NCBI GenBank assembly: GCA_030830205.1
Contig: JAURNL010000033.1
Location: forward strand, 1-64,000
DNA from: Crocinitomicaceae bacterium
GTDB taxonomy: Bacteria; Bacteroidota; Bacteroidia; Flavobacteriales_D; Crocinitomicaceae
Length of the DNA stretch: 64,000 bases
Direction of reading: 5' to 3'
The position numbers and the translations under genes are program-made. Every line of letters begins with the position of its first letter. Within the stretch, counting starts at the first letter, position 1. Below are positions 7,240 to 59,409 of the stretch, piece after piece. The notes beneath the pieces are model-generated. The model was given only the letters and a program-made list of their open reading frames with translations. It did not search any database and had not been told where the DNA came from.

Positions 7240-7283
7240 TCTTAAATAGTTTGTATTTTAGAGGACTACAATTAGTCCTCGAT

Positions 7284-10200: not shown

Positions 10201-10751
10201 ACCAATTGCTAGACCACGCGGGTAATATTATTTTTGAGCGCAATAATTTGCAAAACACAACCCAATATAAAGATACATTCGACCTAGCTCCTGGTTGTTA
10301 TTCGATCATTATTGAAGATACCGACCATGATGGCCTGGCTTTCTGGTATTCTGCACAAGTGGAAGGAGAAACATCTGGTCAAATGCGTTTGAGAAAAGTT
10401 GGCGGAAGCTACATTGAATTCTTCCCAGGAGATTTCGGTCATTATCATCGATATGATTTCACTGTTGGCTTTACGTTAGATGCTCCAGAACTCATCCTAG
10501 ATCCAAAAGTGGTTATTTATCCAAATCCGGGTTCAGGACCAGTTACCATTGAAATAGAGGGTGAAATCAACGGGTCGGCAGATCTGTATATTAAAGATCT
10601 CAGTGGAAGAGAATTACATCATGAAAAAATGAATGCAACAGCACAATTTGCGGAGAGTTTTGTAGACTTTAGTGCTTACCCTTGCGGAACGTATCTCATC
10701 GAAGTACAAACGGCAAATGGAAGGTATGTGCAAAAATTTATTCGTCAATAA
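7284..10751 (+). CDS. secreted PNGase F-like glycan-processing protein with LamG (concanavalin A-like) insertion and T9SS C-terminal sorting domain
   Basis: Signal peptide MKYLFFVYFLCSGLVLFAQ; WDQYNCGEWDYLTYT and GHGQVGNYACCEW...CGDNPNIGQGGTWPYAREGWCPGD resemble PNGase F; LamG-like GAFTVEFWARGEG...WNHWAFVKD...GKIDELRVFKAALS; tail IYPNPGSGPVTIEIEG...GTYLIEVQTANGRYVQKFIRQ. Confidence 0.8.
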   Translation: MKYLFFVYFLCSGLVLFAQDTTWVQTFTFDSITTRRADFQFPASLDTERFEKVQMYYKLKCSPLTAWDQYNCGEWDYLTYTRVFDHTGQFDSTAINGMQFLANCATPSQINLKPIPYTESDEWLMPVYTRMESGLGHIQINNGTTISTHPFLNSKQGSRYQFILTAAELVAAGIQAGPISSMQLNLVNGGELMWPLINMAHTQETTLNEFISAPFIGVFNASCAPGMPHAALVPGWNTFVFYQDFLWNGTSNILVEFQLNNNDFPASQNLEFLMESTPNPMSVAYGSRNGTLTTSGSNYAMSSFVNEEIGGAFTVEFWARGEGNMGVNTNIMEALDSAGRRVFNIHMPWSNDNIYFDAGDETGYDRINKVATSNDIGSYTWNHWAFVKDQASGQMFIYKNGTLWHSGTNKNKEIGYIQKLVIGASGNFTNFWTGKIDELRVFKAALSEATIAAYYQQKVDNTHPEWNNLMFYHDFDDVRYAYDKSGNGHTLMPSEYGMVNTDPNFGVYAGSEILNLRPLLKLSQDVAQGMTTTVVNLPILKEPVVVFEYAPLNRHFELTQTYLGAPEGVEAVYDFNGNIISSNPVQTTLSLNNQSLVVYNPPFEIIHNVEIARYITPYGIQFDLGPNGFTWIYDVTDYQQYLHGLVDLAAHNTQELIDLKFAFIKGTPPRDLVKREPIWSEYKSYNFGQMAADAVLQAKPVVLSDTADMFKIKTRMSGHGQVGNYACCEWVNNTHQIKVDGVPRFNWSIWDAMVCGDNPNIGQGGTWPYAREGWCPGDMVKEFEFELTPYVTPGDTVVLDYAINAVPSSDPGQAGGNYIAAYDLISYKAPNFQNDAAIVDVLNPNNYEYYSKWNPTCQHPRIVLQNTGEQPLTSCRIFCWLDYGSNLVFDWTGNLGFLEQTIVEIPVSDMNWWYEQDSSYTFTAWVADVNGIIGPDQYNQNSLKTVKYDAPERIDGPFFIWLTTNNKASENSYQLLDHAGNIIFERNNLQNTTQYKDTFDLAPGCYSIIIEDTDHDGLAFWYSAQVEGETSGQMRLRKVGGSYIEFFPGDFGHYHRYDFTVGFTLDAPELILDPKVVIYPNPGSGPVTIEIEGEINGSADLYIKDLSGRELHHEKMNATAQFAESFVDFSAYPCGTYLIEVQTANGRYVQKFIRQ

Positions 10752-10778: not shown

Positions 10779-13118
10779 ATGAAATTGGTATTATTCATTT
10801 CTTTTATTTTTTTTGGGTTTGCTGCCTCTGCCCAATTTTCAATTGATTCTTTATCACACATCGATTATCAAGCACTTCATGGTGCGAACTTAAATGATGT
10901 TTGGGGTTACACAGATGAACTCGGTAATGAATATGCCATTGTTGGAACCTCCAAGGGAACGTCTATCGTCGATATAACGAATGGGGCCCAACCACAAGAA
11001 GTTTTTTGGTTACCTGGTTCGGAATCTATTTGGCGCGATCCCTGCGTTTATGGAGATTACGCTTATGTAACCACTGAAGCAGAAGATGGTTTGCTGATCA
11101 TAGATTTAACACCGCTTCCACAATCCGTTAATTTGACTACCGCACTTTATACGGGGCCAACTTCTAATCCATGGCAGAGTGCACATACTTGTTATACCTC
11201 ACCGTCGGGCTATGCCTATATTTTTGGAGCTAATAGAGGAAACGGAGGTGTTATTATTTTGGATTTAAATAGCAATCCTATGCAACCAACTGAAATAGGG
11301 ATTTTTGATATGGCCTATGTTCACGATGGTTTTGAGCGCAATGACACATTGTATATTGGCCATATTTATGATGGTTATTTTAGCATTGTCGATGTTTCAG
11401 ATCATGCCAACCCAGTATTGCTTGCTACACATCCTACACCCAATACGTTCACACACAATATATGGCCTAGTGAGGATGGCAGTGTCGTTTATACAACTGA
11501 TGAGATTTCAGGTGCTTTTATTGCAGCTTATGATATCACCAATTTGCAACAAATTCAGGAACTGGATCGCGTTCAAAACGCACAAGGCACTTCAGTGATT
11601 CCGCATAATGTACATGTCAAAGGAGCTTATTTAGTAACGAGTTATTACAGTGATGGGATTGTAGTACACGATGCGCATGATCCTTCTAATTTAATTAAAT
11701 TAGGAAGTTTTGATACCTATCCAGGTCAGACACCAGGTTTTGATGGGTGCTGGGGAGTTTATCCATTTTATAGTTCTAACAAGGCAGTTGCAGCTGATAT
11801 AACTGAAGGCCTTTTTGTGCTTCAAATCAATTATGCACCAGCAGCAAGTTTAGTTGGTGAGGTCAAAGACTTGATCAGTGGACAGTTACTTGAGCAAGTG
11901 AACGTAGAACTCATTGGCGCCGCAATGACAGAAAAAACGAATGCACAAGGAGTTTACAAAACAGGAATGGCTACGACAGGTACATATGTCGTGAATGTGA
12001 ATAAACCGGGATATTACCCTCAAACAGTTCAGGTGTCACTCGTAGAGGGGCAATTGACTACCCAGAATTTCAATTTACTTCCAATACCACCGTTTGCACT
12101 TCAAGTCAAAGTACTCGAACAAGGAACGCAAATACCATTATCCAACGCTCAAATTAGCTTGCGTCATCCCCAAATAAATCACAATAGTCAGACAAACGGA
12201 CTTGGAGAAGAAGATTTCACACTTTTTTATCAAGATTCATATGAGCTGGTTGTCGGAAAATGGGGTTATCAAACAATTTGTTCTACACCTATAATTAACG
12301 CTGGAACTCAGACGCTCATTATTGAACTTCCAAAAGGATACTATGACGATTTTACTTTTGATTTCGGATGGTCAGTTGCAGGAGATGCGGCAACTGGCTT
12401 TTGGGAAAGAGCTAAACCAAGTCCGACCACCAACACCATGTTTGACTTTGATGCCAACTCAGATTGCGGTGATTTAGCTATGGTTACGGGTAACGCAACA
12501 ACCCCAAATCCTGATCAAAATGATGTGGACGATGGATACACTACGCTTATTTCTCCTTTATTTAATTTAGAAGGTCTCAATAATCCTCACCTTAATTATG
12601 CAAGGTCTTTTTATTGCTTTCATGGTCCCGGTGACTTCGATGACACTTTAACCGTGATGCTGAGTAATGGTTTAGATCAGGTAATTATTGAGGAGATCAT
12701 CGCGCCTCAGGGCAACCCAATGGAATGGGAATACAAGAGTTTTGCACTCAATGGTTTGCTACCCTTTACCAACACTATGCAACTTTTTGTTCGAACTGCA
12801 GATTACCCGGCAAATCCCAATATTACCGAGGCTGCTTTTGATCATTGGAGTATTACCAATGAATCCACCATAGGAACCACCTCATTAAGTGTGTCACAGA
12901 ATGATCCATTATATCCAAACCCAGGTCATGATGTCTTATTCATAAGTCCCTCTAAAACAGAGCAAGTAGTGCGATTTGTTCAATTAGATGGAAAAATTGC
13001 TCACGCCACAATGCTAGCACCTCAACAAACTGTCATCGATACACAGTTGCTCCCTGAAGGAATGTATATTGTTGAAATAGCAGCTCAACGATTTTCTTGG
13101 GTCAAAATCGGGCAATAA
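10779..13118 (+). CDS. choice-of-anchor-B / LVIVD-repeat secreted protein with carboxypeptidase-regulatory-like domains and T9SS tail
   Basis: Signal peptide; HGANLNDVWGYTDELGNEYAIVGTSKGTSIVDIT; LVGEVKDLISGQLLEQVNVELIG; C-terminal LYPNPGHDVLFIS...GMYIVEIAAQRFSWVKIG. Confidence 0.8.
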   Translation: MKLVLFISFIFFGFAASAQFSIDSLSHIDYQALHGANLNDVWGYTDELGNEYAIVGTSKGTSIVDITNGAQPQEVFWLPGSESIWRDPCVYGDYAYVTTEAEDGLLIIDLTPLPQSVNLTTALYTGPTSNPWQSAHTCYTSPSGYAYIFGANRGNGGVIILDLNSNPMQPTEIGIFDMAYVHDGFERNDTLYIGHIYDGYFSIVDVSDHANPVLLATHPTPNTFTHNIWPSEDGSVVYTTDEISGAFIAAYDITNLQQIQELDRVQNAQGTSVIPHNVHVKGAYLVTSYYSDGIVVHDAHDPSNLIKLGSFDTYPGQTPGFDGCWGVYPFYSSNKAVAADITEGLFVLQINYAPAASLVGEVKDLISGQLLEQVNVELIGAAMTEKTNAQGVYKTGMATTGTYVVNVNKPGYYPQTVQVSLVEGQLTTQNFNLLPIPPFALQVKVLEQGTQIPLSNAQISLRHPQINHNSQTNGLGEEDFTLFYQDSYELVVGKWGYQTICSTPIINAGTQTLIIELPKGYYDDFTFDFGWSVAGDAATGFWERAKPSPTTNTMFDFDANSDCGDLAMVTGNATTPNPDQNDVDDGYTTLISPLFNLEGLNNPHLNYARSFYCFHGPGDFDDTLTVMLSNGLDQVIIEEIIAPQGNPMEWEYKSFALNGLLPFTNTMQLFVRTADYPANPNITEAAFDHWSITNESTIGTTSLSVSQNDPLYPNPGHDVLFISPSKTEQVVRFVQLDGKIAHATMLAPQQTVIDTQLLPEGMYIVEIAAQRFSWVKIGQ

Positions 13119-22687: not shown

Positions 22688-25600
22688 TTATTCTTTAATG
22701 AATTGAATGAGTCCACTTTGACTACCGTCATAAATGCCTAAGTAATAGGTTCCAGCTGCAATTTTTTGACTCAATTCAATTGTTTGTTTAACATTTCCGT
22801 CTGAAATATTGAGTAAAAAATCAGCAATGTGTTGACCTTGTGTATTAAAGAGTTTCGCTTCTAAAGTAGTGCCACGCACACCACTTATTTGAATTTCAAA
22901 GATTCCTTTGTTTGGGTTTGGGTACAATTCAAGCAGTGCATAGCTTAATTCAGTTAGACTAGAAGTATTCACTGTAACCTCAATGGTACTCATGCAGCCA
23001 TTATTATCTTTTACATAACAAGTATAAGTACCAATACCTAAATTTGCAAAGAAAGACCCAGAATAATAAGTCTGACCATCTATAGAGTAGGTGTATGGGG
23101 AATTACCTCCACTTGCACTCAATGCAATAGTGCCGTCATTTCCATTGGAAACTGTGGTGTTGGCACTTAAAACGAGTGCATTAGGCTCAGTTATTGTACT
23201 TGTAAAAGCTTGCTGACAGCCGTTTGCATCTGTTGCAGTAAGCATATATGTTCCTTCACTTAAGTTATTAAAGACAGGAGTGGTGCTCGCAGTACCACCA
23301 TTGATTAAATAAGTATAAGGACTTGTTCCGCCGCTTACTTGTGCGTTCAAAATTCCATCGTTAGACCCATTACAACTGATCATTGTGGGAATCATACTTA
23401 CGCTAAGAGGATCTGGCTCTGTTATGGTATAATAAATGGTTGTCGAACAGCCATTTGCATCAATAACACCAATGGTGTAAACACCCGCGCCAAGGTTTAT
23501 AAATGTGTTACTGGCCTGGTCTGCACCATTATCTATAGAAAAGCTGTAAGGAGCACTACCACCTGAGGGGTTCACGACCAAATTAGCAGTTTGGTATCCA
23601 GCACATGCGATAGTGGCGGTTTGATTGATATTCGCATTTATTGTAGTTGTAGCGCTTATTGAAACTGAGTCTGATACTGTACAGCCTTGATTGTCAAACA
23701 CCGTATAAGCATAAGTTCCAGCGGCAAGGTCGTTGAAGGTATTAGCGTTTTGTGGCGAACCGTTCGCTAAAGCGTAGGTGTAAGGACCACTTGAACCAGT
23801 AACTTGTAGTTCTAAAACGCCATTGCTTGAATTACAGCTGGGTTGTTGGTTTACAAGGGCCGTAACGCTCATCGTGCTAGAGCCAATGACATTAATGTCT
23901 AATGTGTAGTTGTCGTTGCAAGTATTTTGATCAACACCTGAGCCATTCACATTAGCTAAGCTTAAATAGACGTTGTTTGAACCTGTTTGAAGACCAGTGA
24001 TGAATAAGTAAACGGTATCGATGGTTTGGTATGTCGATAGGTTGTTGCTGGTATAAGACTGCGTGATGGGATTCGAAGAACCAACTTGCCCCGAAATTTC
24101 AAATGAATTACAATTATTGAGACCACGGTTTTCAATGACTACAGCAATTTGCGTACTTGTACCGCAAATTCCGCTCGATTGAGTAGTGTATGCATCTAGG
24201 ATGGCTATATCTAGGCTGTCTGGATTCATTTTGAATGCAGATACATTAGTGACAATTGCATTGTTTGAATTCATAACAACCCCTGTGTAATAGAAGGTTA
24301 ATCCATCGAAATCATCAATGCACATGTGATGGTAATCTCCCCAACGAGTGTTAGATGTGCGCGATGATAAACCTTGTTTGATCATTGTTTCGGGCAGTGT
24401 CATTTGACCTAAAGGATCGCAAGCCTTTCTACCAGTCATTTGAATAGAAGGGTAGTTTGGTGCTGTGTTTGATGAAGTGGAATACGCCATCATGATATTT
24501 CCGTATTTATCAATATTAATTGCGGGCATCCAACGATTTAAGGTTGTCCCCGGAGCATAGGTCCCTTCTTGATATAGACTCCATGAACCAGTGCTCCCCG
24601 TAGGACGGCGTAGTTCAAGCCAACGCACACCAGCTCTATTATTGCCATCAACATCCGTTGCTAAACACAAAACCATAGCTTGATGATCATTAAAGACGCG
24701 CATAGGTGCTTTGTACATAACGCATTCTCTTAGCGGATCGAGTTTTACCGTTGTTCCAGGTTGGGCAATGCATGAAAAACTAGTCAAACCACAGAGATCT
24801 GAGTCTATTTCAGTAATGGGTACATCTTGAATTTTTGCTACACTCGCTGTATTGGAGGTCCAATTAACAGTCATTTCCCAAATCTCAATCCAGTCATTTG
24901 TGGGGCTATCGGGAGACCCATTGCTATGTTTTTCATCATCACGGTGTCGAACAAATAATGGTTTTTGACCAGTAGGAGCAGCAAGATCTCCTTCTAGGTC
25001 AACAGGAGTAATGGATTGAAATCCAAATCCATTTAAAGTATAGCCAATTGGAACGCCAATAAATGGTGATGCAGCCCCAGTTAGCAATGAACTTAGTTTC
25101 ATTGCATAAACGCGAGGAGGTCCACCTTCATTGGTAGAAGCCAGTAAAGCGTCAGAACTTTCTGAAATACTCCATTTTGGATAATCTGGGAAGTTAGGAC
25201 AACTGAACTGATAAAAATAATAAGCGCCTTGTGGGTTACTTGTTTGAGAAACATATACCAATAATTTTTTTTGGGACTGCGTAGCGAATTGAGTAATAAC
25301 CCAGCGCTTGGCATTTTTATAATAGAGAATTACAGGGTCACCTAAACCAGTTACTGTTGGACTACCCAGAGATGACATGACGAGGTTTCCAGTAACTGCA
25401 GCTCCAGTTGTTTTATTGAAAATTTTAAAGGACCCACCGCTACCGGTATTTGTTCCTTGAATATAAACCGTTGAGTCTGCTTCACCAGTTGGATCGGGTG
25501 GGGAGATACCATTGCCAATACCTTGCACTTGCCAAAGTAAACTAGCAGAAGTTGTTTTTTGCTGATTTGAGCTATGTTGCTGCCAAACCCAATCTGGCTG

Positions 25601-25798
25601 ATGTGTATTAGTGCCGAGTTGGACGGGAAGTTCTCTTCCTTTGAAATTTGGAATCACTATTTCTTGCTTTGGATGACTGGTTTTTGGCGCAGGAACTAAA
25701 ATTGCTGATGACGGACTCACGTAGCCATAAAATGTAGATTCTTGAGAGAATACAATGCTTGTCATGCAAATTATACCAAAAAGATAGAGTAGTTTCAT
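22688..25798 (-). CDS. large secreted protein with C-terminal SprB-type repeats and T9SS sorting domain
   Basis: Signal peptide; repeats ITEPDPLSVSMIPTMISCNGSNDGILNAQVSGGTSPYTYLING...; tail LYPNPNKGIFEIQISG...AAGTYYLGIYDGSQSGLIQFIKE. Confidence 0.85.
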   Translation of the reverse strand: MKLLYLFGIICMTSIVFSQESTFYGYVSPSSAILVPAPKTSHPKQEIVIPNFKGRELPVQLGTNTHQPDWVWQQHSSNQQKTTSASLLWQVQGIGNGISPPDPTGEADSTVYIQGTNTGSGGSFKIFNKTTGAAVTGNLVMSSLGSPTVTGLGDPVILYYKNAKRWVITQFATQSQKKLLVYVSQTSNPQGAYYFYQFSCPNFPDYPKWSISESSDALLASTNEGGPPRVYAMKLSSLLTGAASPFIGVPIGYTLNGFGFQSITPVDLEGDLAAPTGQKPLFVRHRDDEKHSNGSPDSPTNDWIEIWEMTVNWTSNTASVAKIQDVPITEIDSDLCGLTSFSCIAQPGTTVKLDPLRECVMYKAPMRVFNDHQAMVLCLATDVDGNNRAGVRWLELRRPTGSTGSWSLYQEGTYAPGTTLNRWMPAINIDKYGNIMMAYSTSSNTAPNYPSIQMTGRKACDPLGQMTLPETMIKQGLSSRTSNTRWGDYHHMCIDDFDGLTFYYTGVVMNSNNAIVTNVSAFKMNPDSLDIAILDAYTTQSSGICGTSTQIAVVIENRGLNNCNSFEISGQVGSSNPITQSYTSNNLSTYQTIDTVYLFITGLQTGSNNVYLSLANVNGSGVDQNTCNDNYTLDINVIGSSTMSVTALVNQQPSCNSSNGVLELQVTGSSGPYTYALANGSPQNANTFNDLAAGTYAYTVFDNQGCTVSDSVSISATTTINANINQTATIACAGYQTANLVVNPSGGSAPYSFSIDNGADQASNTFINLGAGVYTIGVIDANGCSTTIYYTITEPDPLSVSMIPTMISCNGSNDGILNAQVSGGTSPYTYLINGGTASTTPVFNNLSEGTYMLTATDANGCQQAFTSTITEPNALVLSANTTVSNGNDGTIALSASGGNSPYTYSIDGQTYYSGSFFANLGIGTYTCYVKDNNGCMSTIEVTVNTSSLTELSYALLELYPNPNKGIFEIQISGVRGTTLEAKLFNTQGQHIADFLLNISDGNVKQTIELSQKIAAGTYYLGIYDGSQSGLIQFIKE

Positions 25799-41632: not shown

Positions 41633-43144
41633 CTAATTTTTGACGAGTGTGAACGAATAGGCGGTAACCTGAAGCAGGTAGGTTCCAGATTTGAGCATAG
41701 AAAGGTCAATTTGTGAATCAAGCAATCCCGTTTTTGCTTGTTGGCCATCGGATGTATAGAGTACAAATGCTTTTCCAATCAAATCATCTGGGATATTAAA
41801 AGAGCCGTTACTTGGATTTGGATATAAATGTGCTAATGTGGGAATGCTGTATGTGGAAGTTGAATTGGTTAATTGATTGAGATGATTCAAGTATATTTTT
41901 AAGCCTCCTTGCCGAACGTCCCCCCAAATGACATACAAATGATTGTTATCAAATTGGATATTTAAAAAGTCATTGCCACTTTCTAGAAGTATGGAATCGT
42001 GATCGACCAAAGGACTTATTATAAATTCATCACCCCAGTCTTGGTTACTTTGAATGCGGCAATAGATTTGGGTAGGACTTTGATAGGTAGAGGAAATTCC
42101 ATTGCGTCGATCTCGCCAGCATACGGCTAAATCACCATCACTGTCATAATCTGACCAAACCAAATCTTGAATCACACCATTATTTGTAAGATCTGTGTTC
42201 ACTCTTGTTGGAGTTGACCAACCCGTTCCCGATTTTTCTATACTAAAAATGTCAGGGTCTCCGAAAACATCGCTTATGAATGAATAATTTGCCCGATTGG
42301 CATTCGATGGATCAAGGGAAAGATGTGGTCCACTTTTTAAGGTGTCGTTTGTTGTTCCAAAACCAAGCCCTTGATAGGCTATTTCATAATTGTAATTTGT
42401 GGAGGTGTTTGTTTGTGTAACTTCTACCAGACGCGGTAAAATATGTTGAGCAGGATAATAACTGGGGTAAATTGCCATGAATGTGCCATCATTAGCAAAC
42501 GCGGGTGAAGGCATTGGTTGTGTAATGGTATTTCCTGCTAAATATGGAGATTGGTCTAGTTCTTGTAATGTAAAATTTGCTCCTTGGTCTGAGGAAATTG
42601 CCAAATATGGGTGAAAAGGAGCTGCTACTATGCCAGGTTGATTTGCATTTGTACTGGTAATGAATATGTTTCCTGAGAGTGGGTCAACAGCAATCCATGG
42701 ACGATCAATGCACAATTTATTTGGGCAAGAGCTAATAGACCTGACCACAACACCTTCATTCCAGTTCAATCCCCCATCTGTAGATTTTCTACATACGATG
42801 GCACCATTTGAGAAGTTGGTATTGTCGTAGTCAATATAGGCCATGAAAAGTGTGCCATTAGCGTTAAAGGCAAGTGAAACATCTGCGCTCGTATTCCCTA
42901 ATTGTTGGTGTGTCTGCCAAAATGGTGGTGTCCACGAAGTTCCACCATCAAAAGAAACAACGCTTTTGATGACAATTTTCTGATTGAATTGATGCCCCAT
43001 CCAGGCAGCTACTAAATGATTGCTATTTTGTGGATTGATCGCCAAGTAAGGTTCTCCTTCAAAAATATTTCCCGAAGAAATTAATTGATTCTGTGCTTGG
43101 ACACAAAAAGAAATAAATAGTGTCAAAAGTAACAGTAATTTCAT
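41633..43144 (-). CDS. secreted BNR/sialidase-like beta-propeller protein with T9SS tail
   Basis: Repeated Asp-box-like SFDGGTSWTPP, STDGGLNWNEG, SSDQGANFTL; tail LYPNPSNGSFNIPDDLIGKAFVLYTSDG...GTYLLQVTAYSFTLVKN. Confidence 0.82.
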   Translation of the reverse strand: MKLLLLLTLFISFCVQAQNQLISSGNIFEGEPYLAINPQNSNHLVAAWMGHQFNQKIVIKSVVSFDGGTSWTPPFWQTHQQLGNTSADVSLAFNANGTLFMAYIDYDNTNFSNGAIVCRKSTDGGLNWNEGVVVRSISSCPNKLCIDRPWIAVDPLSGNIFITSTNANQPGIVAAPFHPYLAISSDQGANFTLQELDQSPYLAGNTITQPMPSPAFANDGTFMAIYPSYYPAQHILPRLVEVTQTNTSTNYNYEIAYQGLGFGTTNDTLKSGPHLSLDPSNANRANYSFISDVFGDPDIFSIEKSGTGWSTPTRVNTDLTNNGVIQDLVWSDYDSDGDLAVCWRDRRNGISSTYQSPTQIYCRIQSNQDWGDEFIISPLVDHDSILLESGNDFLNIQFDNNHLYVIWGDVRQGGLKIYLNHLNQLTNSTSTYSIPTLAHLYPNPSNGSFNIPDDLIGKAFVLYTSDGQQAKTGLLDSQIDLSMLKSGTYLLQVTAYSFTLVKN

Positions 43145-46819: not shown

Positions 46820-47911
46820 ATGTCGTTCAAAAGATCCGTATTCTTTTTGTTTTTTGCCATTTTAGACCTTAAATCAAGTGCTCAAGGAATTGTTCCAACC
46901 TTAGATTTTAACAACTATTTTGTTTCTTTTCAAGATGGGTTTTTTAGGCCGATTGAAATTCAACCTATTGTTAGTTACAAAGCTGGTGATGAAATAGTTG
47001 CCTATATTGACACTCGGGGTAACCTGAAAATATATGATGGCAACGAACGTATTGATGTGACCACGCTCAACGTAGACTATCAGGTTTCAGATCACCTCAT
47101 GGCTTATCGCATTGCGCAGGGTTTGCGCATGTGGGATGCGGGTAAATTTACGGTGCTCACCAACTTTGGTCGCGAGTTCATTGTAAGGGACAGTCTGATT
47201 GTCTTTGAAGACACGCGCTACCAGTCAATCAATGTATATTGGAATCAAAAGATTGAAAGCTTGGTTACCATAACTAATGGTCTTTCAATGAATGCGAGTG
47301 TTGGAGAAAATTTAGTGGTATACAAAGACAATAGCAACACTTATTTTGTCTATTGGTTTGGTCAAAAATTCGAAATTGGAACCTATAATGAAGAGATACT
47401 TAATTTTCAATTGGGTACTGATATCATGTGTTTCAAAGACCCATATTCACAATCATTTTTTGTCTTTGATCGCGGGAATTTTATAGAACTAGAGTCTTTC
47501 CCCATTAAAAACTATAAGGCAGGTCGTGGATTTGTGGTCTACGAGGATATGAATGGAAACTTGTGGCATTATCAAAATGGTGAAAAAACAGCTTTATCGA
47601 ATTTTTCAACTGAATTTTGGGATGTAAAAGATGACATTTGTGTTTGGATGGAAAACTCTTATTTTTTTGCTTTCACCAAAGGCAAGCGTATTCAAGTTGC
47701 AACCTATCAGCCACAAGCATATTTGCTCAAAAATAATGTCCTTGCCTTTAGAAATATTATAGGTGGGGTAAGTGCATTAGTCGATGGTCGTATAGAAGAA
47801 ATCACCAATTTTCCGCAGTCTGATTTTGAGATTTATGGCAATAAAGTCCTCGTTAAGCTTCCAAATCAAACCTCGGTAGTCTATATGAATGGGAAATTGT
47901 ATGCAAATTAA
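46820..47911 (+). CDS. secreted hypothetical protein with degenerate propeller-like repeats
   Basis: Signal peptide region; repeated ~40-aa units such as VAYIDTRGNLKIYDGNERIDVT, VVYKDNSNTYFVYWFGQKFEIG, VVYEDMNGNLWHYQNGEKTALS. Confidence 0.6.
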   Translation: MSFKRSVFFLFFAILDLKSSAQGIVPTLDFNNYFVSFQDGFFRPIEIQPIVSYKAGDEIVAYIDTRGNLKIYDGNERIDVTTLNVDYQVSDHLMAYRIAQGLRMWDAGKFTVLTNFGREFIVRDSLIVFEDTRYQSINVYWNQKIESLVTITNGLSMNASVGENLVVYKDNSNTYFVYWFGQKFEIGTYNEEILNFQLGTDIMCFKDPYSQSFFVFDRGNFIELESFPIKNYKAGRGFVVYEDMNGNLWHYQNGEKTALSNFSTEFWDVKDDICVWMENSYFFAFTKGKRIQVATYQPQAYLLKNNVLAFRNIIGGVSALVDGRIEEITNFPQSDFEIYGNKVLVKLPNQTSVVYMNGKLYAN

Positions 47912-49099: not shown

Positions 49100-50139
49100 G
49101 AGTGTTTTCTTCTACTTAGTTCAGTTGCACAAACTAAATGCCAAAGTGCTCTGGCTCCGACATTTGCATCCCAATCTCCCGAAGGGCCCGGTGCAACTTC
49201 ATTGAGGTCAAATCCGATTATTTGGCGCCCAGCATGTACAACTTCAAAGAGTAAATAGGCAATTTGTTGCAATTCAAAACCACCAGCTACCGGCGTTCCA
49301 GTGTGCGGGCACAAACTGGGTAAAAGACCATCAATATCAAAAGAGATATAGACTTTTTGAGGAAGGGTATCAATAATTTCTTTCACCTGTTCAGCCCAGG
49401 ATTTTCCTTTGTATTGTTCATTTTTTAGTGACCAATCATAAAATGTACAGATACGTTCGTCTTCAGAGGCAAGAATTATTTCTTTTTCAGATACATCTCT
49501 GATGCCAACTTGTGTTAATCTTTTAAGGTTTTTAAGTTTTTGAAGCGCATTAAACATGATGCTTGCATGTGACTGCTCAAAACCTTCATATGCATCGCGT
49601 AAATCAGCGTGTGCATCAATTTGCAAAATTCCAAAATCTGAGTGGTATTCATCGAGGGCTTGAAGCAACCCGAGTGGGGTAGAATGTTCACCACCTAGCA
49701 CACAAGGCATTTTGCCAACTTTTAATAGTTGCATACAACGCTCTTTCAAGTTGGATCGCAATGCTTCGTGAGCTTCATTAATTTCTTGAAGTGTAGTTTG
49801 ATAAATGCGACGTGCTTCCTCCTCTCCGGCAAGTTCAATATGTGCAATATATTGTTGTCCCGCTTCACAAAGTCTATCATTGATTGCTTTCCATTCACTC
49901 GACACTGGAGACATAAAGATCTTAGTTTCATATGCGCGTTCCATTTCTGGATGAAAAAAATCAAGCTGGGTTGAAGCATCTAAAATTGCTTGAGGTCCAT
50001 TACTTGTGCCTTTACCATACGAGGCTGTGGCATCCCAGGGAACAGGGATGAGGATGAGGTCGGCTTCAGATTCACTGTAGGGGAACCCGAAGATATTACC
50101 ATTGGCTATGCCTACGCCGTTTGGATCAAAAGTATTCAT
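49096..50139 (-). CDS. ureohydrolase family protein (agmatinase/formimidoylglutamase-like)
   Basis: LGGEHSTPLGLLQAL, DAHADLRDAYEGFEQSHAS, SFDIDGLLPSLCPHTGTPVAGGF, GFDLNEVAPG; likely start MNTFDPNGVG. Confidence 0.88.
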   Translation of the reverse strand: MNTFDPNGVGIANGNIFGFPYSESEADLILIPVPWDATASYGKGTSNGPQAILDASTQLDFFHPEMERAYETKIFMSPVSSEWKAINDRLCEAGQQYIAHIELAGEEEARRIYQTTLQEINEAHEALRSNLKERCMQLLKVGKMPCVLGGEHSTPLGLLQALDEYHSDFGILQIDAHADLRDAYEGFEQSHASIMFNALQKLKNLKRLTQVGIRDVSEKEIILASEDERICTFYDWSLKNEQYKGKSWAEQVKEIIDTLPQKVYISFDIDGLLPSLCPHTGTPVAGGFELQQIAYLLFEVVHAGRQIIGFDLNEVAPGPSGDWDANVGARALWHLVCATELSRRKHS

Positions 50140-50954
50140 TATTTGTCTTGGTTTTGATAAGCTTCGACTGCCTTGCGCACCGAGCCAAATTGGAGGAGCC
50201 ATTTTTGGGCTTCATTTACTTCTATATTTAATTCGTTCGCTACCATCTGTGATCCGCGATCAACTAATTTATCATTGGAAAGCTGCATGTCAATCATTCT
50301 ATTTCCTTTAACATGTCCGAGTTTGATCATTAAACTCGTCGAAATCATATTCAAAATAAGTTTTTGAGCTGTTCCAGATTTCATACGTGTACTTCCCGTA
50401 ACAAATTCTGGACCAACAACAGGGGTAAGTTCATGTTTTGCTAGTTGGGATAAGGGAGAACCAGGATTACAAGAGATACCAGCCGTTAATAGGCCATGTG
50501 CATTTGCTTTCTCAATAGCTCCTAATACGTATGGAGTTGTCCCGGAGGCAGCGATTCCAACAATAGTATCAAGAGGAGTAGGTTGATGCGCTAAAATATC
50601 ATTCCAGCCTTGTTCGTTGTCGTCCTCGGCAAATTCTACCGCTTTTCGAATAGCACTGTCGCCACCTGCTATCAGACCAATAACGCGTCCCTGCTCAACA
50701 CCAAATGTTGGCGGACATTCGCTTGCATCTACAATTCCTAGGCGTCCACTTGTACCTGCTCCAATATAAAATAGCCTGCCGCCCTGTTTCATTCTATCAA
50801 AGCAAGCATCAATGAAGGCTGCTAATTCGTTTGAAATTTGAGCAACGGCAATAGGAACAAGTTGATCTTGCATATTGATACCCTCAAGTAAGGAACGTGT
50901 ATCCATTTGTTCCAGATGATCGTAAGGGGAATTTGCTTCTGTAATTTTCTCCAT
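50139..50954 (-). CDS. murQ: N-acetylmuramic acid 6-phosphate etherase
   Basis: RLFYIGAGTSGRLGIVDASECPPTFG, VVGPEFVTGSTRMKSGTAQKLILNMIST, DRGSQMVANELN. Confidence 0.95.
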   Translation of the reverse strand: MEKITEANSPYDHLEQMDTRSLLEGINMQDQLVPIAVAQISNELAAFIDACFDRMKQGGRLFYIGAGTSGRLGIVDASECPPTFGVEQGRVIGLIAGGDSAIRKAVEFAEDDNEQGWNDILAHQPTPLDTIVGIAASGTTPYVLGAIEKANAHGLLTAGISCNPGSPLSQLAKHELTPVVGPEFVTGSTRMKSGTAQKLILNMISTSLMIKLGHVKGNRMIDMQLSNDKLVDRGSQMVANELNIEVNEAQKWLLQFGSVRKAVEAYQNQDK

Positions 50955-51448
50955 TAGTAGAGGAATACTTTAGCGTCGTTTGGACTGAAATCGACCTCGA
51001 CATGGTTTTTAAGTGTTGTAGAAAGGCTAAGCCCTGCAAAGTCTGTTTTAATGGGATAGCGCCTGTGCTGACGATCTATGAGTGCTACTGTTTTAATTGC
51101 TTTTGTCGCTTGTTCAAGAAACTTGAGCAACGCATATTGCATGGTTTTACCGCTATTAACAACATCGTCAATGAGTACGATGTATGAATTTTTTAAATCT
51201 TTCTTATCTATAGAGAAGGCGATAGGGGCATTCCAGGGTTCATCTTTGTTGAGATGGATTTCAAAACAGACGACATTGAGCGTGCTATTTTCTGCGATAA
51301 CGGCAGCTAGCATTTGAGCCAATTGAAAACCATTTCCGACAATACCACCGAGGTAAATCACTTCTTGACCAAAGGCTGCTTCGATAAGCTGATGCCCCAA
51401 GCGTGTGATTTTTTGTTGAATCTGTTGCTGATTGAGAATTGTTTGCAT
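50954..51448 (-). CDS. PRTase family protein (PyrR-like phosphoribosyltransferase)
   Basis: YLGGIVGNGFQLAQML, YIVLIDDVVNSGKTMQYALLKFLEQATKAIKTVALIDRQHRRYPIK. Confidence 0.82.
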   Translation of the reverse strand: MQTILNQQQIQQKITRLGHQLIEAAFGQEVIYLGGIVGNGFQLAQMLAAVIAENSTLNVVCFEIHLNKDEPWNAPIAFSIDKKDLKNSYIVLIDDVVNSGKTMQYALLKFLEQATKAIKTVALIDRQHRRYPIKTDFAGLSLSTTLKNHVEVDFSPNDAKVFLY

Positions 51449-51470
51449 GCAACAAAGATAAACAAACGCA

Positions 51471-51502
51471 AAAAAGGCCGCTCAAACAAGCGGCCTTTTT
51501 TG
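51471..51502. terminator. bidirectional-looking Rho-independent terminator (follows the BtuG-like gene on the minus strand)
   Basis: AAAAAGGCCGCTCAAACAAGCGGCCTTTTTT. Confidence 0.85.
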
Positions 51503-51517
51503 CAAATCAGTAATAAA

Positions 51518-52771
51518 TTAGAGTTTAATTAATCTGGCTTGACCTTTGGAGCTTTTCAATAGGTAAATACCTGCTTCAAAACCACCTAAGTCAATGGTGC
51601 CATTCGCACCTTCCATGAGAATTTGACCAGAAGAATTGAGAATTTGATAAGTGTCGCCGGGTGTGAAGTCAATCATTTGAAAAATTCCATTCGACGGGTT
51701 CGGAGAAACATTTGTTGTAGCTGTCATGTCTATAAGGCCAGCGCTAGAACGAACATCAAAAATAATTGTGCCAGGGGAAACACCAGCTTCAAACTCATGA
51801 ATTAAGGCATTGTTATTGTCAAAAATCAAAACAGATCCCGCTGAAAAGAAATCAGTTGTGGAAGCATATAAATAGCCACTAACCGGGTCTTGTGCAAGAT
51901 CATAAAAGTTGCTATTAATACCCGCAACCGGCCCAACATATGACATGCTGAGAAGGTTGAAGTCATTTAGCGTATTGTCCATGGAAATTTGATAGACAAG
52001 TTTATCATCTCGTAGTGCAGATGTTCCACATCCTGTTATTGCGTTTGCAATGTTTTGGGTATTGACAGTTCCGTTTAGACTTATTTTGGATACTGAAGCA
52101 CCAGACCAATCTTTATTATTTACGGTAAAAATATGGTTGTCGAAAAGAAACATGTTGTCTGGATTTTTCCCTTCAACCCCAAGGTCAAACTCTGCTCCAT
52201 ACTGAAGAGTATTAAGATCGAGCTGCCCAATAAGTCCTTTTTCGTTACCCCATTCGTAAGCATTGTTGACTGCAATGTAGGCAATATCGTTAGCTATAAC
52301 AATATTCTGGGTTGCCCACTTGGGACCGCTAATGGTATCAAGCGCGGAAATCAATTGTAATGAATTCTTATCAAAAACTTGCAGATAAGATGCAAAAGTT
52401 TGGAGGTATTCACCACGCGTTGCAAGCAGTTTGTTGCCTGAAATGGCAAGGTTGCGTACACCAGGAAGATCAATACTCCCTAAATTTTGGTGCGTGTGGA
52501 GGTTATACTTATATATTTTAGTATCAGCTGCAACGAAATAAAAATCACCATCTACAACAATGTCAGAGCTAAATCTCTGACCAAATAGGGTATCCACTAC
52601 TGTGTAAGTAAATGTTTGTGGGTCGTAAGTGCCAATGGTTGAAGGTTCAATAATAGTGTTGGTTTGAAAGTCGAAATATCCTTCATTCGCTATAAGTACT
52701 TGATGGACATATTGCTGAGCAAACATACCAGCACTCCACAATGCAAAAAATAAAAGTAATCCTTTTCTCAT
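51518..52771 (-). CDS. BtuG/DUF5074 (YncE-like) beta-propeller protein with T9SS sorting domain
   Basis: Signal peptide; VLIANEGYFDFQTNTIIEPSTIGTYDPQTFTYTVVDTLFGQRFSSDIVVDGDFYFVAADTKIYKYN; propeller repeats; tail VSPNPSNGIFQMIDFTPGDTYQILNSSG...GIYLLKSSKGQARLIKL; downstream of a cobalamin riboswitch. Confidence 0.8.
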   Translation of the reverse strand: MRKGLLLFFALWSAGMFAQQYVHQVLIANEGYFDFQTNTIIEPSTIGTYDPQTFTYTVVDTLFGQRFSSDIVVDGDFYFVAADTKIYKYNLHTHQNLGSIDLPGVRNLAISGNKLLATRGEYLQTFASYLQVFDKNSLQLISALDTISGPKWATQNIVIANDIAYIAVNNAYEWGNEKGLIGQLDLNTLQYGAEFDLGVEGKNPDNMFLFDNHIFTVNNKDWSGASVSKISLNGTVNTQNIANAITGCGTSALRDDKLVYQISMDNTLNDFNLLSMSYVGPVAGINSNFYDLAQDPVSGYLYASTTDFFSAGSVLIFDNNNALIHEFEAGVSPGTIIFDVRSSAGLIDMTATTNVSPNPSNGIFQMIDFTPGDTYQILNSSGQILMEGANGTIDLGGFEAGIYLLKSSKGQARLIKL

Positions 52772-52861
52772 GTTTTGAAAAATTAAAAAAAAAATTAAAC
52801 AATGACACCGAAAAAAAGTGGAGCGGCAAGGGCAGGGTATTCCCTTGGCGATGCCGACTTT

Positions 52862-53031
52862 GATCTGAAGTCTTCACGCTGTTAGTAGGCAAGTCTTCTG
52901 GCTCGTGCCTCATGTTGCTTTACCTTCCCGCTTGAGCAGTGGTGTTTAAAGTAACTTTTTAGACACTTACAGCTGCAGATACAGCTCCGGATTCTAACCG
53001 GATTCCTTATTAAGTTCGATAAACGAACACC
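52862..53031 (-). promoter_or_regulatory. cobalamin (B12) riboswitch
   Basis: Minus strand: AATAAGGAATCCGGTTAGAATCCGGAGCTGTATCTGCAGCTGTAA ... ACACCACTGCTCAAGCGGGAAGG ... GAGCCAGAAGACTTGCC, all matching known cobalamin riboswitch core blocks. Confidence 0.93.
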
Positions 53032-53191
53032 TAAGAACAGAACAAAAGTAGGTATTAATTTGAGCCAATTGACTTAATGGACTTTTTAACAAATTAAAAT
53101 CCCGATGTTAATAAGTTAAGTGCTTGAACTTTAGATATATAAAAATATGTTTTTTATCTTTAGTGCACTAACCCTTTAAACCTTTATTACT

Positions 53192-54011: not shown

Positions 54012-54040
54012 GCTTATTTCAGAAAGAGTATCTATCTTTG
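54009..54040 (+). promoter_or_regulatory. Bacteroidota-type promoter for rpsO
   Basis: TTTG (54009-54012) - 20 nt - TATCTTTG (54033-54040); the TTTG box is formed by the end of the preceding terminator T-tract. Confidence 0.65.
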
Positions 54041-54097
54041 CACCCGTATTGATCAAGGTGGTCAGTCTACATAATAATCATTTACACAAATATTAGC

Positions 54098-54367
54098 ATG
54101 TATTTAGATTCAGCAAAGAAGAAAGAAATCTTCGCCAAACACGGTGGTTCAGAAACCAATACAGGTTCCACTGAAGGTCAGGTGGCCTTATTCACATTTC
54201 GTATTGCTCACCTTACAGAGCACTTGAAAAAGAACCGCAAAGACTACGGCACCCAACGCGCACTTCAATTATTAGTTGGTAAGCGTCGCAGTCTTTTAGA
54301 CTACCTAAAGGCGAAAGACATCGAGAAATACCGCGCCTTGATCAAAGAATTAGGACTTCGTCGTTAA
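54098..54367 (+). CDS. rpsO: 30S ribosomal protein S15
   Basis: 89 aa; NTGSTEGQVALFTFRIAHLTEHLKKNRKDYGTQRALQLLVGKRRSLLDYL. Confidence 0.97.
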   Translation: MYLDSAKKKEIFAKHGGSETNTGSTEGQVALFTFRIAHLTEHLKKNRKDYGTQRALQLLVGKRRSLLDYLKAKDIEKYRALIKELGLRR

Positions 54368-54459: not shown

Positions 54460-56610
54460 ATGAATATAGGAACAAGAAAGTCAATCATGACCGGCGGCAA
54501 GGAAATCCTTGTAGAGACCGGGAAGTTGGCAAAACAGGCAGATGGTTCTGTTGTGGTGCGCATGGGCGACACCATGTTGCTCGCTACTGTAGTGGCAGCG
54601 CCCGAAGCGAAAGAAGGAGTAGATTTCCTTCCGCTTACTGTTGATTACCGCGAAAAATATGCCGCGGCAGGACGTTTTCCAGGTGGTTTTTTCCGCCGTG
54701 AGGCTCGTCCGTCTGAATCAGAAATTTTAGTCATGCGTTTAGTAGACCGTGCATTGCGTCCACTTTTCCCAGACGATTACCATGCTGAGGTGCAACTTAT
54801 GATTCAACTCATGTCTTATGATGGTGTTCATAACCCTGATGCTCTGTGCGGCTTAGCTGCTTCGGCTGCGATTGCCGTTTCTGATATTCCATTCAATGGC
54901 CCAATGTCAGAAGTGCGCGTTTGTCGTGTAAATGGTGAATTGATTATCAATCCGACAATGGCAGAAATTGCCCTTGCAGACCTTGACGTGATGGTAGCTG
55001 GTACAGCTAAGGATGTCAACATGGTAGAAGGTGAGATGAAAGAAATATCGGAAGCGGAGTTAGTTGAAGTTATCAAAGTAGCCCACGCTGCAATTATCGA
55101 GCAATGTAACTTCCAATTGGAACTTGCTGCTGAAATACCTTCTGCCAATCCAAAGCGCGAATATTGCCACGAAACACACGACGAAGCTGTTCGTGCTCGT
55201 GTATACGAACTTGCCATGGAAAAATGCAAAGATGTTGCTCGCATGGGTCTTGCCAATAAGGCAAAACGCACCGAGCTATTCGATGCCATCAAAGCAGAAG
55301 TGAAAGCGGCCTTCACTGAAGAAGAATTAGAAACTGCCAGTAAATTCATTTCTACTTATTTCTCTGAAGTCAAGAAAAAAGCGGTACGTTGGGTGATGCT
55401 CAATGATCGCAAACGTCTAGATGGTCGTCAATTTGATGAAATTAGACCAATTTGGGCCGAGGTAGATTATTTGCCAATGGTTCATGGTTCTGCTGTGTTT
55501 ACCCGTGGTGAAACTCAATCGCTTACTACGCTTACTTTAGGAGGTAAAATGGATGAGCAAATGATTGATGGGGCTACTTTCCAAGGAACTGAAAAATTCT
55601 TATTACATTATAATTTCCCTCCTTTTTCAACAGGAGAAGCACGTCCGTTGCGTGGAACATCACGTCGTGAAATTGGTCACGGAAATTTAGCGCTTCGTGC
55701 ATTGAAGCCAGTCATGCCAGACGACTATCCATATGCTGTACGTATCGTTTCGGATATTTTAGAATCTAACGGTTCTTCCTCAATGGCTACAGTATGTGCC
55801 GGAACACTTGCCCTTATGGATGGAGGTGTGCCGATTAAAGCACCCGTTTCAGGTATTGCCATGGGGCTCGTTGCAGACGAAGGAAAATTTGCAGTTTTAT
55901 CTGATATCCTCGGCGATGAAGATCACCTTGGTGACATGGACTTTAAAGTAACAGGTACTGCAAATGGAATTACAGCATGTCAAATGGATATCAAGGTAGA
56001 TGGATTACCATATGAAGTATTGACTCAAGCGCTAGAGCAATCTCGTGCAGGTCGTTTACACATCCTCGGTAAAATCACAGAAACCATGCCGGCACCGCGT
56101 CCAGAATTGAAGCCACAAACTCCGCGTTTGGAAGCATTCAATGTACCAAACGAAATGATTGGTGCTATTATTGGGCCTGGAGGCAAAATTATCCAAGGTT
56201 TACAAAAAGAAACAAAAACGACAATCACTATTGAAGAATTACCAAATGGTGAAGGACGTGTTCAAGTACTTTCAAATAACGGAAACGATATGGCCGAGGC
56301 TATCCGCTTGATTCGTCAAATTGCATTCCCACCACAAGTAGATGAAGGTGCTACTTACGAAGGTAAAGTGAAATCTGTTAAAGATTTTGGTTGCTTTGTA
56401 GAAATCGTACCTGGAACTGATGGTTTGATCCATATTTCGGAGTTTGCTTGGGAAAAGACAGCAAAAATGGATGATGTGGTCAAAGAAGGTGAAATGCTTA
56501 CTTTTAAAGTAATAGGCAAAGATCCAAAAACAAAAAAATGGAAATTATCTCGCAAAGTTTTGTTGCCGCGTCCGGAGCGTCCGGCTCCAGAGCAAACAAC
56601 TGCAGAGTAA
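54460..56610 (+). CDS. pnp: polyribonucleotide nucleotidyltransferase (PNPase)
   Basis: 716 aa; [65 protein letters not shown]1 [18 protein letters not shown]. Confidence 0.97.
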
Positions 56611-56748: not shown

Positions 56749-59409
56749 ATGAAAAAAGGTTTACTTTTTATCCTAACTATCCTGAGTGTCAATGTATTTG
56801 CTCAAACATTTGAGTCTTTTAATTTTACTGGTCTTGCTTCGGCAAACGGTTGGACCGTTCACAGTGGTACAACGGGCCCAATAACAGCTTTAACTACACC
56901 TTCGGGGAGTGGTAACAGCTTGACTTATCCTGGTCTTCCAGCATCATTAGGTAATCGAATTTCAATGTCTGGTTCGGTTGCTGAAGATATCAATAAACCG
57001 TTTACGACATCAGGAACAAGTGGATACTTCTCTTTTCTTTTGAACGTAACTGATTTGTCGAATATGTCTGCGAATGGTAGTTATTTTATTGCATTTGGCG
57101 GTACCGCTGGGTCAATTGTATCCATTTATTTCCCACGCTTGTATATTGCATTGGGTTCAACTGCTACAACTTTTAAATTAGGTATTTTGAATACCTCTGG
57201 TGGTTCGGTTGCTCCTACATTTATTAATCAAGATCTGAATCCAAACACGACCTATTTTGTGGTGGCAAAAGCCTCTCAGAACGCTACTGGTGGAATCGAT
57301 GCTGACTTATGGCTCAATCCAATACCAGGAGCTGCTGAGCCTGCTTCAATGGCAAGTAATTCTCAAGGCTCTTCTTCTTGGCCTGCGGCAGGGATTCAAT
57401 CAATTGCATTGCGCCAAGCATCGGGAATTGGAACTTTTGAATTAGATGAGATCAGAGCAGGAGAAACATGGGCTGCCGTGACTCCAAGTGCCGCATCTTC
57501 GTGCATAAGCTACAATACGATAGCAGCTAGTGCTTGTTTAAATTACACGTTAAACGGTCAAACCTATACATCCTCCGGTACCTACACGCAAGTATTATCG
57601 AATGCAAATGCAGCAGGTTGTGATTCTATCATTAATTTGAATCTTACGATTAACAACACAAGTAATTCAACTTTGAATATCACCAATTGTGGGCCATACA
57701 CCCTAAATGGGCAAACATATAGCACGAATGGTACGTATACCCAATTAATACAAAACGTGGCAGGATGTGATTCAACTATTACCCTTGATTTAACTATTGT
57801 TGGTTCTCTTACTTATTATGAAGATGCAGATAACGATGGCTTCGGTAATGCGGCAAGTTCTCAAATAGGGTGTACGCCAATAGTGGGTTATGTAACCAAT
57901 AGCTTGGATTGTGATGATAACAACAATGCAATATACCCAGGAGCAATTGACATTCCTGGTAATGGTGTAGACGAAGATTGTGATGGTCTTGACGCTCCGC
58001 TTTCACTCGGTATCTATGAGTTTGCAGGCACGACGGATTGCAGTACCCAAGATGTTGCTGCAACTAATTCTAGTGTGAATTGGACCTTTTCTGATTTTAC
58101 CGCTGAAGGGACAAGTTGTGCATCAGGAGGAGGAATTTTTAACAGAAGCGGTTGGAATCAAACACCCATCATCGACCTCAATCAATACAATGAATTCACC
58201 GTTACTGGTGCAAATTGTACCAATCTGCATCTGTCAAAATTAGCTCTGAATCACCGAACTAGTTCTACAGGAGGAACCCCAACGATTTACCTGCGTTCAA
58301 GCCTTGATAATTTCGCGTCGAATATTGATAGTATCGAAACGGCATGGAATGGTAATGTATTCTTGGCTGATACTGTAGAACTACCATCTGCATTTGCAAA
58401 TGTAGGCGTTGTTACTTTCCGATTCTATGTTGTGAATCAAGCAACCTCAACGTCAACATTGCGCATGGACAACGTATCTTTATGGGGGAATGCAATTACT
58501 ATTACCCCTTCGCTTTATTACGCTGATACTGACGGAGACGGTTTTGGTGATCCTGCAATGGACACCTTGTTATGTAATGCTCCGGCAGGATTTGTAAGTA
58601 ATAACACCGATTGTGACGACACAAATGCAGCGATCAACCCAAATACGGTTTGGTACCAAGATTTAGACAATGACCAAGTAGGTAATACCAATGTAACGCA
58701 AATCGCATGTTTGCAGCCAGCAGGTTATGTGTTAGCCGATGGTGATTGTGATGATACTGATGCGACTATAACAGCGCCAGTCATGTACTATACAGATGCA
58801 GACCAAGATGGATTTGGTGACGATGCTACTGGTACGCCTTTCTGCCAAGCTCCGGTGAACATGGTTGCTGTTGGTGGCGATTGCAATGATTCTGACAATA
58901 CTGTTTACCCTGGCGCACCAGAGCTTTGTGATGGTTTAGATAATAATTGCGATGGCCAGACAGACGAAGGACTTACCTTTGTAAATTATTATTTTGACTT
59001 TGATGGGGATGGTTTTGGAATTGGGAATCCTACTGTTTCATGTTCTCCAATTACAGGTTATGCTACCCAGAGTGGGGATTGTGATGACAGTAATAATGCA
59101 ATTTATCCTGGCGCAGCAGATACGGAAGGTAACGGTATTGATGAGAATTGTGATGGTGTAGATGGCATACTTGGTCTCATCGATCTCGAATTTATTGCAC
59201 AAATTTCACCAAATCCAACTACAGATTTGGTTCAAATTACTTTCAATAAAATAATGTCATGCCAAATGGTTCTTACTGATTTGAATGGTAAAATCCTTCA
59301 AAATGAATTGATTAACGGAATATCACATAATTTAGATTTGACGCATTTAAAGCCTGGTACTTACCTTGTTCAAATCAATTCGACCATACAACGAATTGTG
59401 AAGCTATAA
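56749..59409 (+). CDS. secreted multidomain protein with five MopE-type putative metal-binding repeats and T9SS tail
   Basis: Signal peptide; YYEDADNDGFGNA...LDCDDNNNAIYPGAIDIPGNGVDEDCDGLD-type units x5; CLNYTLNGQTYTSSGTYTQVL...GCDSIINLNLTI repeats; tail ISPNPTTDLVQITFNKIM...GTYLVQINSTIQRIVKL. Confidence 0.87.
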   Translation: MKKGLLFILTILSVNVFAQTFESFNFTGLASANGWTVHSGTTGPITALTTPSGSGNSLTYPGLPASLGNRISMSGSVAEDINKPFTTSGTSGYFSFLLNVTDLSNMSANGSYFIAFGGTAGSIVSIYFPRLYIALGSTATTFKLGILNTSGGSVAPTFINQDLNPNTTYFVVAKASQNATGGIDADLWLNPIPGAAEPASMASNSQGSSSWPAAGIQSIALRQASGIGTFELDEIRAGETWAAVTPSAASSCISYNTIAASACLNYTLNGQTYTSSGTYTQVLSNANAAGCDSIINLNLTINNTSNSTLNITNCGPYTLNGQTYSTNGTYTQLIQNVAGCDSTITLDLTIVGSLTYYEDADNDGFGNAASSQIGCTPIVGYVTNSLDCDDNNNAIYPGAIDIPGNGVDEDCDGLDAPLSLGIYEFAGTTDCSTQDVAATNSSVNWTFSDFTAEGTSCASGGGIFNRSGWNQTPIIDLNQYNEFTVTGANCTNLHLSKLALNHRTSSTGGTPTIYLRSSLDNFASNIDSIETAWNGNVFLADTVELPSAFANVGVVTFRFYVVNQATSTSTLRMDNVSLWGNAITITPSLYYADTDGDGFGDPAMDTLLCNAPAGFVSNNTDCDDTNAAINPNTVWYQDLDNDQVGNTNVTQIACLQPAGYVLADGDCDDTDATITAPVMYYTDADQDGFGDDATGTPFCQAPVNMVAVGGDCNDSDNTVYPGAPELCDGLDNNCDGQTDEGLTFVNYYFDFDGDGFGIGNPTVSCSPITGYATQSGDCDDSNNAIYPGAADTEGNGIDENCDGVDGILGLIDLEFIAQISPNPTTDLVQITFNKIMSCQMVLTDLNGKILQNELINGISHNLDLTHLKPGTYLVQINSTIQRIVKL

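Follow-up and report, generated by a model that had tools for sequence, protein, structure and literature searches.

In the Flavobacteriales lineage represented by the 64,000-nucleotide (64-kb) stretch of DNA analyzed here (the window), a single gene behind a cobalamin riboswitch is an alternative to a complete B12 uptake operon. This gene, referred to as the solo gene here, encodes a BtuG-type β-propeller with a T9SS sorting tail. The riboswitch, the BtuG-type fold with its distant homology, the T9SS tail, the exclusion of BtuB, the sharing of a chromosomal slot with the operon, and the presence of B12 enzymes in the genus were all established computationally. We consider it probable (roughly 0.68) that the solo protein is a B12-capturing BtuG analogue, exported by the T9SS, that has replaced BtuH, BtuB, and BtuG and hands B12 to an unlinked, putative TonB-dependent transporter other than BtuB.

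Riboswitch leader and gene organization

The solo gene and its leader are composed of the following features.

51467..51504, minus strand: intrinsic terminator-like hairpin with a 17-pair stem, 3' of the solo gene
51518..52771, minus strand: solo T9SS-tailed BtuG-like propeller protein, 417 amino acids (from the open reading frame, orthologues, and fold)
51521..51712, minus strand: T9SS type A sorting domain, residues 354-417 (TIGR04183)
51746..52714, minus strand: β-propeller domain, residues 20-342 (AlphaFold/Foldseek)
52715..52771, minus strand: Sec signal peptide without lipobox, residues 1-19 (sequence and predicted N-terminal helix)
52811..52855, minus strand: variable hairpin followed by a run of seven T, a terminator-like putative expression platform
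52856..52872, minus strand: conserved hairpin GACTT-CAGATCA-AAGTC, near-identical across leaders
52871..53049, minus strand: cobalamin riboswitch aptamer RF00174 (cmscan 99.1 bits, E 1.5e-23)
53043..53050, minus strand: TACTTTTG, a match to the -7 element TAnnTTTG just 5' of the aptamer

The aptamer matches RF00174 over the full model (positions 1-189), with a score far above the gathering cutoff of 31.5 bits, which confirms the minus-strand cobalamin riboswitch that had been read from the sequence at 52862-53031, a few bases off. It is the only cobalamin riboswitch in the genome of the window (G000; 2.02 Mb, 93% complete), the genome-wide search suggested by the original prediction having returned no further copy. 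Orthologues of the solo gene in the same genera are also preceded by a cobalamin riboswitch, as are 8 of 10 more distant relatives. In all solo leaders with a match to the GAGCCAG box pattern, the TAnnTTTG element, which we take to be the Bacteroidota -7 element consensus, lies 141-154 nt 5' of this box. The conserved hairpin, in the form GACTT-CAGATnA-AAGTC, is common to the solo leaders and to the btuB-operon leaders of the two related genera compared below (g1 and g18), and is probably the kissing-loop (L13) hairpin. The arms of the second hairpin, located before the T run, covary by eye among the solo leaders; for the window copy alone, the folding energy of the leader is not above that of shuffled sequences. 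Such riboswitches mediate repression in Bacteroides when B12 is present (PMC8941943).

Given the terminator-like hairpin at 51467-51504 behind the solo gene and a divergent gene starting at 53192 ahead of it, we regard the solo gene as a one-gene unit. Pfam identified no cobalamin gene among the open reading frames of the window that were submitted to it, in agreement with what had been proposed.

The N terminus of the solo protein, MRKGLLLFFALWSAGMFA followed by QQ, is a Sec-type signal, in which A18-Q19 is near-invariant in the orthologue alignment (n = 31). TIGR04183 matches residues 355-415 with 25.5 bits (cutoff of 23), while the match to Pfam Por_Secre_tail (PF18962) is marginally below the cutoff in the solo protein and reaches E ≤ 0.1 in 27 of 31 orthologues. 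Two characteristics of a T9SS type A cargo, namely, a Sec signal and a C-terminal sorting domain (TIGR04183/PF18962), are thus present, and the lipobox cysteine is absent (C248 is the sole cysteine), as expected from the earlier claim that the protein has a T9SS tail and no obvious lipobox. Five further T9SS-tailed proteins are encoded in the same 64 kb (window positions 7251-10751, 10779-13118, 22688-25798, 41633-43144, and 56749-59409), so such tails are widespread in this organism and carry no special meaning by themselves.

Structure prediction and distant homology

The T9SS tail is the only part of the solo protein recognized by Pfam and NCBIfam, with no match to a named propeller family. 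PF16819 (DUF5074) has no match in the solo protein or 30 orthologues, and neither has PF14717 (DUF4465, BtuH) in the solo protein or its orthologues; on the BtuG protein of a sister genome (G136, see below), PF16819 scores 55.4 bits. We gathered orthologues from whole genomes and GTDB contigs and aligned 31 of them. When searched against all PDB sequences, the profile of this alignment matched BtuG/YncE-type cobalamin binders (E 2.6e-6 to 6e-4), the remaining matches being T9SS-tail proteins only. An AlphaFold2 model built from the alignment (pLDDT 86.7) was compared with the PDB by Foldseek, and the top 14 matches were the B12-binding lipoproteins BtuG1/2/3, BT2095, and BtuK1, ahead of other propellers (E values between 4.9e-16 and 3.6e-11, highest target TM 0.80), bearing out the resemblance to BtuG2 that had been anticipated. 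Similarly, hhalign aligned the solo family with the BtuG lipoproteins of related genera over 316 columns (probability 98.7, E 2e-16); these lipoproteins are true BtuG proteins by sequence, since they match 8blw_B at 322 bits.

At the level of residues, the invariant NEG..D motif (N29-D34) of the solo family aligns with Asn54-Thr64 of BtuG2, one of two loops that grip B12 "like a pair of pliers" (PMC10404256), and the invariant Y290 aligns with Tyr316, which narrows the B12 pocket (PMC10404256). For the pocket residue Trp272 there is no clear equivalent in the solo protein alignment, and the BtuG pocket is, by alignment, only partly conserved in the solo protein. The propeller has a net charge of -19 (orthologue median -19, range -36 to -15), compared with -18 in BtuG2 (PMC10404256). 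The region of Trp272 contains an invariant TGCGTS (residues 246-251; window 52019-52036, minus strand) that adjoins a poorly modelled stretch and whose invariant C248 might contact the cobalt face.

The solo protein is a BtuG-type β-propeller and a distant homologue of BtuG over its length, with an identity of 14-17%. The assignment to a YncE/DUF5074-type propeller in the original prediction therefore stands by profile and structure, but not by Pfam or NCBIfam, which give no DUF5074 or YncE call.

Cobalamin riboswitches also control B12-independent isozymes, and propeller folds are common, so the riboswitch could in principle serve a B12-independent, metE-like substitute, with a propeller unrelated to cobalamin binding. 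We judge this very unlikely, given that B12-binding propellers top both the structure and the profile rankings, that secretion and a T9SS tail are ill suited to a metabolic isozyme, and that the gene replaces an uptake operon.

In genomes of g7 and g11, other T9SS-tailed proteins of 575-649 amino acids, with an N-terminal AEGNFG, are encoded alone behind a cobalamin riboswitch at the following positions.

L096:7928-9661: T9SS-tailed protein of g7/g11
L097:1312-3255: T9SS-tailed protein of g7/g11
L102:1233-3182: T9SS-tailed protein of g7/g11
L105:1332-3059: T9SS-tailed protein of g7/g11

These genomes also encode BtuB. We provisionally left these proteins outside the solo family, which they match only in the T9SS tail; a PDB search gives no BtuG, and their AlphaFold model is poor (pLDDT 53.8).

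One riboswitch slot for two cassettes

The genes that flank the solo gene in the window also flank the uptake operon of sister genomes.

50139-50954: MurQ-like SIS protein, beyond the phosphoribosyltransferase; same neighbor in G136, G161, G163, and G167
50954..51448, minus strand: phosphoribosyltransferase; beside the operon in G136, G161, G163, and G167
54098..54367, plus strand: rpsO, the other flank; G161, G163, and G167 also have it here, beside the operon
54460-56610: pnp, after rpsO; also at the operon slot in G163

In these four genomes, the riboswitch is followed by btuH (DUF4465), btuB, btuG (DUF5074 lipoprotein), and a gene for a protein with a weak T9SS tail, as called by Pfam on the G136 copies, of which the DUF4465 (BtuH-type) protein is T9SS-tailed as well. 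The operon is located between rpsO and the phosphoribosyltransferase-MurQ genes (the G136 contig begins at the riboswitch) and is followed by a 339-amino-acid gene, which also adjoins the solo gene in G108 and on the L086 contig. In g18, the operon site (G037 and G051) has a TonB-dependent transporter gene on one side and a methyltransferase on the other, and the same site is filled by the solo gene in G119, G125, G143, G130, and G090. Since the flanks match both in the genus of the window and in g18, two distinct chromosomal sites accept either cassette.

Given that the same slot holds btuH-btuB-btuG in sister genomes, the solo gene is a replacement cassette rather than a helper of some distant BtuB. 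The idea of a T9SS-exported cobalamin-capture protein acting in trans is thus retained with regard to the BtuG-like propeller and the T9SS tail that substitutes for a lipid anchor, but it has to be revised in that the gene replaces the operon and has no distant BtuB to assist.

Several other elements of these loci were recorded. The last gene of the btuH-btuB-btuG operon (L147:4400-5350, ∼320 amino acids) is kept across genera and carries an SFAPxPG...AIxKDSS motif; its product has a weak T9SS-tail match and no other Pfam match. In the window, a "10-bladed beta propeller" (PF21734, 316 bits; 46820-47911, plus strand) overlaps the start of an NlpC/P60 gene, and the four BtuB genomes of the genus all have this pair beside the slot. 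An S15-Flavobacteria ribosomal protein leader (RF03161, 60.8 bits; 54033-54100, plus strand) lies directly 5' of rpsO.

Distribution of the solo gene and BtuB

Across 67 genomes from the two related genera (g1 and g18), 53 contain the solo gene only, 10 contain BtuB only, none contains both, and 4 drafts contain neither (Fisher 4e-9, uncorrected for kinship). A BtuB profile built from 13 BtuB proteins scored 660-690 bits in 4 of the 41 genomes of the window genus and ≤50 bits in the others, while the solo profile matched 35 of the 41 and none of the 4 BtuB genomes among them. Thirty-one further genomes added seven solo genomes of the window genus and 11 of g18, all without BtuB, as well as six g18 genomes that lack the solo gene and have BtuB. 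Because the BtuB profile reaches 530-680 bits in genera outside its building set, we consider it sensitive enough.

Many of the compared genomes are drafts or metagenome bins with a completeness of 66-100%, and BtuB might simply be missing from the assemblies. This explanation is hardly credible, however: BtuB is found in 0 of the 53 solo genomes, many of which are 98-100% complete, the profile exceeds 500 bits where BtuB is present, and the slot itself is assembled and occupied by the solo gene. The earlier statement that btuB is missing from the window is correct but too narrow, as there is none in G000 or in any of the 53 solo genomes, and it is this genome-wide absence that makes the case unusual. 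The original prediction had named the lack of btuB throughout the genome, together with a lack of cobalamin binding, as grounds for its rejection; G000 shows the btuB part of this pair.

In a tree of pnp, the solo and BtuB states are intermixed within g18, suggesting that more than one exchange is likely to have occurred; single-gene trees leave the ancestral state and the direction of exchange unfixed. One g18 genome has a btuB with an in-frame TAA (L236; G106:C132:7278-9248), which is either a sequencing error or a sign of a decaying btuB.

Cobalamin use and putative transport partners

B12-binding domains are present in 40 of the 41 genomes of the window genus; those of G000 include a MetH encoded by two genes (L142:11335-14977) and a fragment of a mutase at the edge of a contig. 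A FecCD permease occurs, almost always as a single copy, in 34 of the 41 genomes, with and without BtuB alike, and where its surroundings were read it adjoins a binding lipoprotein and an ATPase in a BtuFCD-like arrangement. TonB-dependent transporters are numerous in G000; among those tested, none combines presence in every solo genome with absence from the BtuB genomes.

One version of our preferred explanation is that the BtuBG architecture is kept in unlinked form, the solo protein serving as lid to one particular TonB-dependent transporter that does the work of BtuB but has diverged beyond recognition by sequence. The wealth of such transporters in G000 would fit, and one of BtuB size (G000:C78; L144:3925-5937, minus strand, 670 amino acids) occurs in 20 of the 41 genomes of the window genus and in 0 of the 4 with BtuB. 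However, this protein is absent from the near-complete solo genomes G148, G139, G127, and G108, and two other options, G000:C112 (the best TIGR01779 match) and the metH-side transporters, are shared with BtuB genomes (G136 in the latter case). We rejected all of them as the partner and regard this version as doubtful.

The lack of a dedicated transporter linked to the solo gene would also agree with a protein that binds B12 without a role in uptake, as a secreted or surface store, scavenger, or decoy, with an unrelated constitutive transporter carrying out the uptake. In other genera of the family, G067, G059, G010, and G027 indeed have a different T9SS-tailed protein behind an extra cobalamin riboswitch despite BtuB elsewhere. 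Nevertheless, at two sites the solo gene displaces the only uptake operon under riboswitch control, and no g1 or g18 genome compared has it together with BtuB; we hold such a role to be improbable.

Proposed uptake route and comparison with known systems

For the capture and handover of B12 that we favor, low B12 would lead to production of the solo protein, which the T9SS would export and which may then be held at the surface or released. The propeller would capture cobamides extracellularly, an unlinked TonB-dependent transporter other than BtuB would import them, and the conserved BtuFCD-like ABC transporter would complete uptake, with rising B12 lowering expression of the solo gene. The chances are about even for a more specific formulation, a T9SS-dependent, BtuB-free route in which a secreted "cobalophore," whose cassette was repeatedly exchanged with BtuH/BtuB/BtuG under one riboswitch, feeds a TonB-dependent transporter that does not belong to the BtuB family.

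The BtuB-free solo genomes of these water bacteria suggest an unrecognized way of B12 uptake. We found no paper in the open-access literature on a T9SS-exported BtuG or on BtuB-free cobalamin uptake in Bacteroidota. A Flavobacteriales lineage seems to keep the cobalamin riboswitch and B12-dependent enzymes without BtuB, with one T9SS-tailed BtuG-fold protein instead of the operon, raising the testable questions of how B12 crosses the outer membrane and whether secreted propellers act as B12 scavengers. If true, predictions of B12 uptake from genomes, which depend on finding BtuB, would have to change.

The closest known proteins are BtuG1, BtuG2, and BtuG3 of Bacteroides thetaiotaomicron, DUF5074 propeller lipoproteins (3DSM, 8BMY, 8BAI, and 8PTD; PMC6143338, PMC10404256), which share with the solo protein the propeller fold, a strongly negative charge, the aligned NEG loop and Tyr316, and control by a cobalamin riboswitch. 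The solo protein differs from them in its low identity (see above), its T9SS tail instead of a lipobox, its one-gene unit, and its never being found with BtuB in g1 or g18; across 313 gut strains, btuG homologues were located in btuB operons in 106 of 112 cases, nearly all with the lipobox cysteine (PMC6143338). BtuK1 (9S6C; PMC12751083) is likewise a cobamide binder from a riboswitch-controlled locus and a structural match, but it is a lipoprotein inside a btuB locus and a weaker match than BtuG. BtuH/DUF4465 proteins (PMC8941943, PMC13398666) are also surface B12 binders, and that of G136 shares the T9SS tail, but they are β-jellyrolls instead of propellers and belong to the operon that is replaced. 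Compared with E. coli BtuB-BtuFCD, the solo genomes have a similar FecCD permease, binding protein, and ATPase, whereas BtuB is absent. Since the solo protein fails Pfam DUF5074, the lipobox, and linkage to BtuB, we class it outside BtuG proper, as a variant of the BtuG system; this was also the original view, and it holds in that the fold is kept while the anchor, operon context, and partner differ. The solo protein keeps the BtuG fold and probably its function.
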